From a virus, in the IMG/VR virus record IMGVR_UViG_3300025131_000347, positions 1 to 26,599 of that record: 26,599 bases of DNA. One strand, given 5' to 3'. The position numbers and the translations under genes were made by a program. The notes beneath the pieces were generated by a model. That model worked only from the letters and a program-made list of their open reading frames with translations, made no database searches and had not been told where the DNA came from. Of this stretch, positions 14,821-16,507 are shown piece by piece (positions within the stretch are counted from its first letter, which is position 1; every line of letters starts with the position of its first letter).

Positions 14821-14844
14821 TTAGCTCTCTAAAAACTGAATAGG
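14821..14844 (-). repeat. Terminal half-site of cassette-like array
   Basis: TTAGCTCTCT plus AAAACTGAATAGG (14832-14844). The last 13 bases are the exact reverse complement of CCTATTCAGTTTT at 15387-15399 on the other side of the 159-residue gene. The core half matches the other spacers (AGCTCTCTAAA at 15733-15743), but the partner arm of a following gene is absent, as expected at the end of an array. Confidence 0.7.
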
Positions 14845-14849
14845 ATTTT

Positions 14850-14867
14850 AATTATTAGCTAATAATT
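14850..14867. repeat. 18-bp perfect palindrome
   Basis: AATTATTAGCTAATAATT is its own reverse complement. It lies between the stop of the 159-residue gene and the terminal half-site, about 65 bases upstream of the leftward promoter. It could be an operator for a dimeric regulator or a hairpin at the end of the upstream message. No second copy was noticed. Confidence 0.5.
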
Positions 14868-14886
14868 CTATTTACTTAATTGTAAG

Positions 14887-15366
14887 TCAACTCTTTTTCT
14901 CATTTTTTTCTAAAAATAATTTGTCCAAAATCTTAACTTTGATTGCTTTTATGGATTTTTCTGTTATATCTTGAGCCCGACTACCCATACCGAGCATTTT
15001 ACTATCAATACTTGGCAGGACAGTAACTGTCTTATCAATATCGTTACCATATATAGTTTCTCGTCCAAAACCAAGTGCATCTATTTCTTTTTCATAATCT
15101 CTAATGCCATACCTATCATTATAGTTAAATGTTTTTGAGTGTAGCTTTTGTGCTATTTCTCTGGCTAACTCATAAACAGCAATGGAGTTTAGATTGGCTG
15201 TTGCCTCATAGTAATTCGCTCTGTGAAAGTATTTAGTCTTTTTTGGTTTTAATCCTAAATCTTTTAAATTGTAGCCAAATACTTTAGCAAGTTTTTTAGC
15301 AAACTTTGGGTCAACCATTGCTCGTGAATGTTCTTCCATTTCCTTTAGTGCTTTAGTTTTTTTCAT
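14887..15366 (-). CDS. Unknown 159-residue protein, third gene of cassette-like array
   Basis: Not recognised. MKKTKALKEMEEHSRAMVDP is helical and charged. The middle reads TANLNSIAVYELAREIAQKL, then DRYGIRDYEKEIDALGFGRE and TVTVLPSIDSKMLGMGSRAQ; the end is basic and helical. No metal site, signal or membrane segment. It is bracketed by 13-base perfect inverted arms at 14832-14844 and 15387-15399. Its base and codon use are visibly richer in G and C than the neighbouring leftward genes (for example the stretch around 14970-15060), which suggests a separate origin. The strong ribosome binding site AGAAAGGG fixes the start at 15366. The stop is TGA. Defence, counter-defence or regulatory cargo are possible, with no direct evidence. 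Confidence 0.75.
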   Translation of the reverse strand: MKKTKALKEMEEHSRAMVDPKFAKKLAKVFGYNLKDLGLKPKKTKYFHRANYYEATANLNSIAVYELAREIAQKLHSKTFNYNDRYGIRDYEKEIDALGFGRETIYGNDIDKTVTVLPSIDSKMLGMGSRAQDITEKSIKAIKVKILDKLFLEKNEKKS

Positions 15367-15374
15367 ATATTTTT

Positions 15375-15382
15375 CCCTTTCT
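15375..15382 (-). promoter_or_regulatory. Strong AGAAAGGG ribosome binding site, third cassette-like gene
   Basis: Minus-strand context ATATAGAAAGGGAAAAATAT precedes ATG 15366. It follows directly after the upstream complementary arm. Confidence 0.8.
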
Positions 15383-15386
15383 ATAT

Positions 15387-15439
15387 CCTATTCAGTTTTC
15401 AAAGAACTATTTTATAAAGTCTTCTAAGGGTTGAACGAG
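15387..15439 (-). repeat. 53-bp palindromic spacer between cassette-like genes 2 and 3
   Basis: Plus strand: arm CCTATTCAGTTTT (15387-15399), core CAAAGAACTATTTTATAAAG then TCTTCTAAGG, arm GTTGAACGAG (15430-15439). The first arm matches 14832-14844 across gene 3. The second pairs with 15701-15710 across gene 2, with one G-U pair in RNA. Within the spacer the ends also pair imperfectly around a central AAGA..CT stem. On the coding strand the ends read RYYYA (GTTCAAC) and TRRRY (ACTGAAT). Confidence 0.7.
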
Positions 15440-15457
15440 AATTATATAATTATTTAA

Positions 15458-15679
15458 TTAGTTAATTTTTTCTAATTCTAAATCTCCTTTTTTATTTTCT
15501 ACATAATCCCAACATTCATCATTAGGAAAGATAATTGTTTTATTTTTATCTTTTTCTATGGAAGTAAAATATTCTCCACCTATTTCCTTAAAAGTATTTC
15601 CTTCACTATCTATTGATAATAACACTTCGTTATTTTGTGGCTGAGCTTTTAATAACTCAATAAGTTCTTTTATTTTCAT
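15458..15679 (-). CDS. Small phage protein, second gene of cassette-like array
   Basis: 73 residues: MKIKELIELLKAQPQNNEVL, LSIDSEGNTFKEIGGEYFTS, then an acidic C-terminus. The pattern of an N-terminal amphipathic helix followed by 'L...D.EGN.F..I' strands is familiar from small phage proteins of unknown function; I can name no activity. It is bracketed by arms at 15430-15439 and 15701-15710. The ribosome binding site AGAAAGGA with good spacing supports ATG 15679. It is probably transcribed from the promoter at 16071-16099. Confidence 0.7.
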   Translation of the reverse strand: MKIKELIELLKAQPQNNEVLLSIDSEGNTFKEIGGEYFTSIEKDKNKTIIFPNDECWDYVENKKGDLELEKIN

Positions 15680-15688
15680 ATACTTGTT

Positions 15689-15696
15689 TCCTTTCT
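15689..15696 (-). promoter_or_regulatory. Strong AGAAAGGA ribosome binding site, second cassette-like gene
   Basis: Minus-strand context ATATAGAAAGGAAACAAGTA, next to the arm GTTGAATGAG, sets the start at 15679. Confidence 0.8.
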
Positions 15697-15700
15697 ATAT

Positions 15701-15754
15701 CTCATTCAACTTTTAGAAAACTTTATTTATAAAGCTCTCTAAACTTTAAGTAGG
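15701..15754 (-). repeat. 54-bp palindromic spacer between cassette-like genes 1 and 2
   Basis: Arm CTCATTCAAC (15701-15710), core TTTTAGAAAACTTTAT / TTATAAAGCTCTCTAAA, arm AAACTTTAAGTAGG (15741-15754). As leftward RNA it folds end to end into a 26-position hairpin with 22 paired positions (four G-U), including an uninterrupted 15-bp inner stem next to a two-base mismatch. The arms pair better with their cross-gene partners at 15430-15439 and 15967-15980. Confidence 0.75.
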
Positions 15755-15770
15755 ATTTTTATTTAATTAT

Positions 15771-15944
15771 TTATTTACTATATTTTTCACAAGCTACTTT
15801 TTTAATTAAAGCTTGTAATTTTTCTACTGTTATTTTTACTTCTTCACTTGTTTTATCATTTGGTGTCCAACATAACCATTTTAAATAATCAGTATAATCT
15901 AACCACTTTTCTAAATATTCTTTTTTACTTATTTTAGTTTCCAT
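15771..15944 (-). CDS. 57-residue protein, first gene of cassette-like array
   Basis: Sequence METKISKKEYLEKWLDYTDY, then LKWLCWTPNDKTSEEVKITV and EKLQALIKKVACEKYSK. It is acidic-basic mixed, Trp/Tyr-rich at the N-terminus and helical at the C-terminus. No family recognised. The strong ribosome binding site AGAAAGGA at 15954-15961 and the consensus promoter upstream support it as a real first gene of the leftward transcript. It is bracketed by complementary arms 15741-15754 and 15967-15980 (13 of 14 positions). Confidence 0.7.
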   Translation of the reverse strand: METKISKKEYLEKWLDYTDYLKWLCWTPNDKTSEEVKITVEKLQALIKKVACEKYSK

Positions 15945-15953
15945 ATATTTATT

Positions 15954-15961
15954 TCCTTTCT
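15954..15961 (-). promoter_or_regulatory. Strong AGAAAGGA ribosome binding site, first cassette-like gene
   Basis: Minus-strand context AAGAAAGGAAATAAATATAT immediately before ATG 15944; nine bases separate AAAGGA from the ATG. Confidence 0.8.
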
Positions 15962-15966
15962 TAAAT

Positions 15967-16004
15967 CCTACTTAAGGTTTAGAAAACTTTATTTTTAAGT
16001 TCTC
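15967..16004 (-). repeat. Leading half-site of cassette-like array
   Basis: Arm CCTACTTAAGGTTT (15967-15980), then core TAGAAAACTTTATTTTTAAG and TTCTC. The leftward RNA keeps the inner hairpin (GAGAACTT / AAAGTTTTC). No second arm follows because there is no gene upstream; the promoter leader begins instead. Confidence 0.65.
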
Positions 16005-16070
16005 TTTTTTATAATTGTCAATGTTCTGCACCTTACCTATCCTTTCACCCTTGCTTGTATTTATATATAC

Positions 16071-16099
16071 ATTATATATTATATTAGAAAATAAGTCAA
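16071..16099 (-). promoter_or_regulatory. Consensus sigma-70-type promoter of cassette-like array
   Basis: On the minus strand -35 TTGACT (16094-16099) and perfect -10 TATAAT (16071-16076) are 17 bases apart. The expected start is near 16064, giving a roughly 120-base purine-rich leader before the 57-residue gene. Confidence 0.85.
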
Positions 16100-16305: not shown

Positions 16306-16461
16306 ATGATAAAAAAAATACTCCAACAATTAATTTATAAACTTTCAACAAAAAATCTTTGTAAAGATTCATCTGACCTGTTTCATTTTTTATCATTATT
16401 ATTTGGAACAGGTAATAAATTTGCTCATAAGCTAAAGTTTATAAATTGTTGGATGATTTAG
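16306..16461 (+). CDS. Possible leaderless 51-residue ORF inside structured region
   Basis: ATG 16306 opens 51 codons to TAG 16459-16461: MIKKILQQLIYKLSTKNLCK, DSSDLFHFLSLLFGTGNKFA, then HKLKFINCWMI. The ATG is about seven bases after the -10, so the mRNA would be essentially leaderless. No homology is recognised. The same DNA carries long inverted repeats, so the open frame may be incidental to a structured RNA. Codon third positions are A/T-rich like those of the neighbours, which does not discriminate. Confidence 0.35.
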   Translation: MIKKILQQLIYKLSTKNLCKDSSDLFHFLSLLFGTGNKFAHKLKFINCWMI

Positions 16462-16486
16462 ATGAATCTTTATAAGGGTTTTTTTT
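16306..16486 (+). ncRNA. Candidate structured RNA with pseudoknot potential
   Basis: Three pairings are visible. (a) 16323-16345 with 16434-16452: CCAAC plus AATTTATAAACTTT against AAAGTTTATAAATT plus GTTGG, 19 bp with a short bulge. (b) 16362-16374 TAAAGATTCATCT with AGATGAATCTTTA at 16460-16472, 13 bp perfect. (c) ACCTGTT 16376-16382 with AACAGGT 16407-16413. The order a-b-c-c'-a'-b' means (a) and (b) cross, forming a pseudoknot or two mutually exclusive states. Arm b also has a local rival AATCTTT (16354-16360). A run of eight T follows at 16479-16486. The fold was judged by eye, not computed. Confidence 0.45.
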
Positions 16487-16507
16487 ATTATTAAAAATAT
16501 ATTAACA

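Follow-up and report, generated by a model that had tools for sequence, protein, structure and literature searches.

Predicted boxA-type leader-trailer helices around small, exchangeable protein-coding genes of a phage

The stretch of viral DNA analysed here, hereafter the window (IMG/VR record IMGVR_UViG_3300025131_000347, 26,599 nucleotides), harbors three consecutive small genes between positions 14821 and 16004, encoded on the minus strand as are all features given in this paragraph. On the coding strand, the order is promoter, 57-aa gene (15771-15944), 73-aa gene (15458-15679) and 159-aa gene (14887-15366). The run is probably driven by a sigma-70-type promoter found by sequence match (TTGACT-17-TATAAT, 16071-16099), and each gene has its own ribosome binding site; both features had been named in a preliminary description of this DNA and were confirmed. 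Between promoter and first gene lies a degenerate boxA-like sequence, GAACATTGACAATTATA (16010-16026), a putative leader element, which is replaced by GTTCATTGACAATTATA in two related loci (L127 and L128). Each gene is enclosed by a 5' (leader) and a 3' (trailer) arm complementary to each other, at 15963-15992 and 15729-15758 for the 57-aa gene, at 15699-15726 and 15414-15442 for the 73-aa gene (the latter arm containing GTTCAAC) and at 15385-15409 and 14822-14846 for the 159-aa gene. The leader arm of the 159-aa gene includes the sequence GTTCTTTGAAAACTGAATA (15389-15407), which matches the boxA of rRNA operons. A short palindrome, AATTATTAGCTAATAATT (14850-14867), directly precedes the trailer arm of this gene, as it does the equivalent arm in a related phage (L130), and the conserved sequence AAAGGTCG follows directly after it. 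The enclosed sequences are protein-coding open reading frames with ribosome binding sites and not rRNA. No relatives of the 57-aa and 159-aa proteins were found in IMG/VR, neither the window nor the array DNA matched any named phage, and no Rfam family scored above cut-off in the window or in six other loci.

Inverted arms around each gene had been described before (13/13, 10/10 and 13/14 matching positions for the 159-, 73- and 57-aa genes). They were borne out and exceed the earlier description in length, with stems of 25-30 nt. The 57 stem (15963-15992 with 15729-15758) contains 27 Watson-Crick pairs, two G-U and one A-C among 30 positions, the 73 stem (15699-15726 with 15414-15442) consists of a 14-bp and an 11-bp helix with two A-C between them, and the 159 stem (15385-15409 with 14822-14846) has 22 Watson-Crick and three G-U pairs in 25 positions. 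The cognate duplexes reach -35.5 (57; -34 to -36), -31.1 (73) and -35.6 kcal/mol (159; -33.8 to -35.6), compared to -10.6 to -22.2 kcal/mol for non-cognate combinations, all of these energies being predictions for naked RNA free of ribosomes and proteins. The earlier statement that cognate arms match best is thus correct, with duplexes of -31 to -36 kcal/mol versus no better than -22 kcal/mol. Relative to dinucleotide shuffles, the flanks of the 57-, 73- and 159-aa genes obtained z values of -9.6, -8.2 and -8.7, the observed value being reached by none of 1000 shuffles, and no flank duplex of the 26 other genes in the window was better than -19.1. A scan for flank complementarity over 169 open reading frames of the window and the related phages, in which the arm sequences were not used as input, gave nine scores below -25, eight of which belong to arm units (L127 and L128 being near-duplicates). 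The top of the ranking was occupied by the armed genes of 57, 73 (in three genomes), 117, 67 and 159 residues.

In a partition function calculated over the 1.27-kb transcript, the cross-gene stems accounted for 28.5 of 30 (57), 18.6 of 31 (73) and 24.6 of 25 nt (159) in the ensemble, while the hairpins of the spacers were at 0.0. The palindromic spacers of about 54 bp reported earlier are present in the sequence and could fold as hairpins, but as the main structure these were rejected, since they are outcompeted by the cross-gene stems. Half-spacers at both ends of the run as well as the RYYYA and TRRRY motifs in the arms were found as described. On the coding strand, G-U predominates among the mismatches in the stems of the 57, 73 and 159 units and of an additional locus (L160, see below), with eight G-U versus three A-C (small numbers), as expected for RNA. 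The earlier suggestion of an RNA device in which the ends of each message pair is therefore backed by the ensemble fold, the duplex statistics and the scan of 169 open reading frames, as well as by the match to an rRNA boxA helix described below. A 105-aa gene in the related loci (L127:3371-3688 and L128:11918-12235), whose flanks are predicted to pair at -23.4 and -26.6 kcal/mol, is a weaker candidate for an armed unit.

Relatives of the 73-residue protein are encoded on four IMG/VR contigs (G001 to G004). G002 and G003 correspond to the loci L127 and L128, which are nearly identical and were counted as one phage; the sample hence comprises the window and two independent related phages. In G002 and G003 the 73-aa gene is flanked by arms as in the window, while in G001 (twice) and G004 it is part of ordinary operons without arms. 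Despite its two copies of the gene, the 41-kb contig G001 (IMGVR_UViG_3300025131_000104) contains neither boxA nor armed genes. The two copies are located near both ends of this contig (L084 and L088), in similar arm-less gene clusters whose DNA is partly repeated. The comparison of related phages proposed in the preliminary description revealed both the absence of a unit and different genes between arms of the type found at the 159-aa gene (159-type). These arms enclose a 117-aa gene in G002 and G003 and a 67-aa gene in G004 (L130). The arms are nearly identical across the three phages, and so is a large part of the sequence immediately surrounding the 3' arm; the 159-, 117- and 67-aa proteins show no mutual similarity (blastp E > 1). 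The 57 unit is missing from G002 exactly at a 17-bp direct repeat, AAATAAAGTTTTCTAAA: when the 266 bp separating both copies of this repeat are deleted from the window, 72 of 75 positions agree with the sequence of G002. Nor does a 159 unit follow the 73-aa gene of G002; at this place, the boxA half-arm continues into the AAAGGTCG tail. Since unrelated genes lie between equal arms and the 57 unit is absent exactly at the repeat, the units are modular and the gene between the arms is exchangeable. In this small sample of related phages, arms and boxA occur together or not at all.

No array was found in 80 terminase relatives checked for arms, which indicates that the arms do not follow that terminase. 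Three matches of a pattern scan with the 3' arm (L090, L092 and L094) apparently lie in coding sequence, look like chance and were discarded. Intergenic runs of a 5-nt repeat, GTGTC, are located in the related phages (L127:2815-2865, L128 near 14200 and L087:1580-1640), their length differing between near-identical genomes.

The promoters of L127 and L130 are followed by GTTCTTTGAAAACTGAATA or GTTCATTGACAATTATA approximately 15 nt after the -10 box, and a third promoter of L127 by GTTCATTGATAATTGAATA further downstream. These sequences resemble boxA, at which NusB/S10 binds in rRNA leaders. An exact 23-mer of the 159-type 5' arm, GTTCTTTGAAAACTGAATAGGAT, has two matches in bacterial genome contigs. 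One is located in a Bdellovibrionia rRNA operon, in the spacer between 16S and 23S, the other (L132, approximately 2340-2000, minus strand) upstream of a CRISPR-like array in a Desulfurobacteriaceae genome. The repeat of that array is GTTGAAATGCCCTAAAAAGTGGAAGGGATTGCGAC. Both settings, rRNA operon and CRISPR leader, are known for boxA (PMC7862264). In 144 genomes of the phylum to which the Bdellovibrionia operon belongs (Bdellovibrionota, chosen via this one exact 23-mer match and not claimed as host of the phage), the sequence GYTCTTTGAAAAHTGAATA was found at 31 sites, the reversed control at none. Of 30 sites examined, 26 are part of rRNA operons, 24 before the 16S gene and two in the 16S-23S spacer. 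Of the remaining four, two are cut off by the end of the contig, a third is close to such an end, and the fourth is unexplained.

In ten of these operons the boxA arm is predicted to pair with the 16S trailer at -20.0 to -34.6 kcal/mol, compared to averages of -11 to -15 for shuffled trailers. The pair GCTCTTTGAAAACTGAATAGCTAGAT with TATCTAGCTGTTTAGTTTTGAGAGAGTG from one operon may be set beside the phage pair GTTCTTTGAAAACTGAATAGGAT with ATCCTATTCAGTTTTTAGAGAGC, and the Bdellovibrionia operon shows a like pairing of boxA arm and 16S trailer. After 16S, eight of the ten operons also carry GTTCTTTGACAAYTGAATA, which resembles the other leader type of the phages. Judged by sequence, the 5' arm of the 159-type units is a boxA leader of bacterial rRNA, a connection new in this follow-up and not recognised in the preliminary description. 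boxA is present in the leaders of the 159-type units of the window, of L127/L128 and of L130. The arms of the 57 and 73 units have diverged from boxA and the first boxA of the window is degenerate, leaving the 159 unit as the only one in the window with a clear boxA.

These results are best explained by boxA-type leader-trailer helices around protein-coding phage genes, each forming an expression module like the 16S part of an rRNA operon (probability approximately 0.7). In E. coli, boxA-bound Nus factors were proposed to anchor the rRNA leader at RNA polymerase while the 16S part loops out, upon which the emerging trailer can pair with the anchored leader; for 30S subunits to be active, leader and trailer must form a helix of more than 17 bp (PMC10250234). 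Since the parts of an rRNA operon are arranged in equal order around the phage genes, we infer by analogy a Nus-dependent, termination-resistant transcription and a co-transcriptional closure of the cistron. Placed after a promoter or after another module, each module would comprise a boxA-type leader arm, the gene and the complementary trailer arm, with the next module following. With host NusB/S10 and partner factors bound to boxA, the leader would be kept close to RNA polymerase, and the polymerase would turn resistant to termination while the RNA of the gene loops out between leader and trailer. The emerging trailer arm would pair with its cognate leader during transcription and close the cistron in a stem of 25-30 bp, which might then be cut, presumably by RNase III, or shield the ends of the mRNA. 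The reading frame between the arms would be exchangeable. In the rRNA of E. coli, boxA is positioned outside the leader-trailer helix; in the phage arms and the Bdellovibrionota operons tested it lies inside, and stem formation and Nus binding could consequently compete. No published description of leader-trailer helices around phage mRNAs was found in a search limited to open-licence papers.

Arms that only pair and thereby protect or process the cistron, with boxA as a relic and Nus factors uninvolved, would account for the 57 and 73 units, which have kept their pairing after losing boxA, and for a predicted fold dominated by cross-gene stems. As these arms drifted from boxA but kept pairing, and as the first boxA is degenerate, the stem may indeed outweigh boxA for the first two genes. 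For the array as a whole we consider this explanation unlikely, because an exact boxA is kept in the 159 unit and, right after promoters, in the relatives, and because none of the related phages has boxA without arms or arms without boxA. A translational role of boxA is known from suhB of E. coli, which is repressed through a boxA near the ribosome binding site (PMC5725501). In the 159-type units, boxA is close to the ribosome binding site as well, so that Nus factors might, as for suhB and a ParE-like toxin, keep the gene off, until the trailer frees boxA; the long cognate arms of the 57 and 73 genes, in which boxA is not conserved, are left unexplained, making such repression quite improbable.

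Two further explanations refer to DNA rather than RNA. The preliminary description had considered an integrase-less cassette array, in which the arms would be attC-like sites and the cassettes be moved by an integrase in trans. The modularity implied by this idea was confirmed: units are gained or lost singly, as with the 57 unit absent in L127, and the arms enclose different genes. GTTCAAC and GTTGAAT are present in the 73-residue unit as stated, in this unit only. Integron membership was not supported. The window lacks an integrase, as noted before, and no tyrosine recombinase (PF00589) was detected in it or in four related, possibly incomplete records, while control genomes were positive. 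Cores of the attC-like form RYYYAAC/GTTRRRY were found in the 73-type unit alone; neither the 57 unit nor the 159-type units nor L160 has them. For both reasons an integron or attC identity was rejected; it is highly improbable also in view of the match of the arms to rRNA boxA and the leaders with ribosome binding sites in the units. The absence of the 57 unit is equally explained by homologous recombination between the 17-bp direct repeats. Least weight of all is given to a DNA-level element, with the palindromic spacers as operators of a DNA-binding protein or as terminal repeats of invertible or transposable units. It would fit the inverted arms around each gene and the palindromic spacers, but all armed genes share one orientation relative to boxA and promoter, the empty site contains one copy of a repeat lying inside the arms, without target duplication, and neither the cognate specificity across genes nor the boxA identity is explained.

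Read as a series of boxA-type leader-trailer modules, the phage array would work like an rRNA operon, but is not one. With the rRNA operon (rrnTAC system) it shares a promoter, a boxA leader, a long leader-trailer helix and a boxA before the next gene, the boxA arm being near-identical and the trailer arm similar. It differs in that the units enclose short, exchangeable protein-coding genes instead of rRNA, have gene-specific arms, occur up to three in tandem and show a decayed boxA in two of three units. The nut sites of lambdoid phages combine a boxA in a phage leader with host Nus factors. In these two respects the units can be likened to them (cf. PMC10250234), but in the array each gene is enclosed by arms; no N-like protein turned up among the proteins covered by a general scan. 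The boxA leaders of CRISPR arrays are similar in having boxA after a promoter outside rRNA operons (PMC7862264), whereas the phage units add a complementary trailer arm and contain protein-coding genes instead of repeats. Integron gene cassettes are likewise single-gene modules with inverted ends that may be singly absent; the phage units differ from them by the missing integrase, the lack of attC cores in most units and their own leader with boxA. Phage morons are comparable as small exchangeable genes, which have their own promoter in L127 and L130, but in the phage units the boxA leader is complementary to the end of the gene, and in the window three tandem units follow a single promoter.

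Further boxA-led loci were found in IMG/VR. The boxA-like sequence GTTCWTTGAMAAYTGAATA is present in at least 119 stretches. Among the matches listed, ten of 72 non-redundant cases have a downstream complement scoring 18 or more, two of the ten being the relatives of the window, compared to no upstream complement and approximately 0.2 per shuffle in the control for these 72 cases, also among the matches listed. On an unrelated-looking contig (L160), a promoter and boxA are followed by two small genes and a trailer pairing at 26 of 26 positions. In approximately 30 mostly AT-rich loci, boxA-TGAATAATRYGGTATT or a variant precedes one or two genes, and in nearly all of these an intrinsic-terminator-like hairpin follows, the 5' half of which complements the leader. 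These terminator-type loci were treated as a related form and not as members of the class to which the window belongs. Over ten non-anchor positions, cognate pairing amounted to 218 of 250 versus 197.7 on average after permutation (sd 3.0; highest value in 5000 permutations 211), a control that leaves shared ancestry in. In 19 of 21 loci with the hairpin scored whole, a set leaving out eight hairpins ended at an early T-run and L193, which has no terminator, the leader duplex is predicted to exceed the terminator hairpin in stability. No mutual blastp matches were obtained among the enclosed proteins, and two of the loci had no match in named phages or plasmids. Some of the loci may be host DNA beside prophages. 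The arrangement may represent a leader-specific control of termination. That exchangeable genes in boxA leader-trailer helices, together with this terminator-complementary form giving leader-specific terminator bypass, constitute a widespread, so far undescribed phage RNA device is a tentative proposal, to which we assign slightly less than even odds. In individual loci (L233, L224, L229, L247, L261, L178, L207 and about 20 more), the terminator has a 5' half complementary to the 14-18 nt following boxA; the genes in between are unrelated, and sometimes one unit directly succeeds another.

The combination of boxA and leader-trailer helix has been studied almost only within the making of ribosomes. 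A boxA helix around exchangeable phage genes suggests that it may be a free-standing module, and a small reporter could allow the chaperone role proposed for the rRNA antitermination complex (anchoring the leader, looping out the body and pairing the trailer) to be tested while the ribosome is left untouched. It also suggests a route by which phages may protect short mRNAs against termination and decay. The pattern of arm and boxA is a searchable signature for further units.

Upstream of the array, between divergent operons, the region 16316-16490 of the window (plus strand) is predicted to fold strongly (-46.3 kcal/mol, z -6.1) and ends in GGGTTTTTTTT. It has no match in Rfam, and a second helix (approximately 16322-16345 with 16434-16454) interleaves with the main helix, so that the region may encode a pseudoknotted non-coding RNA.
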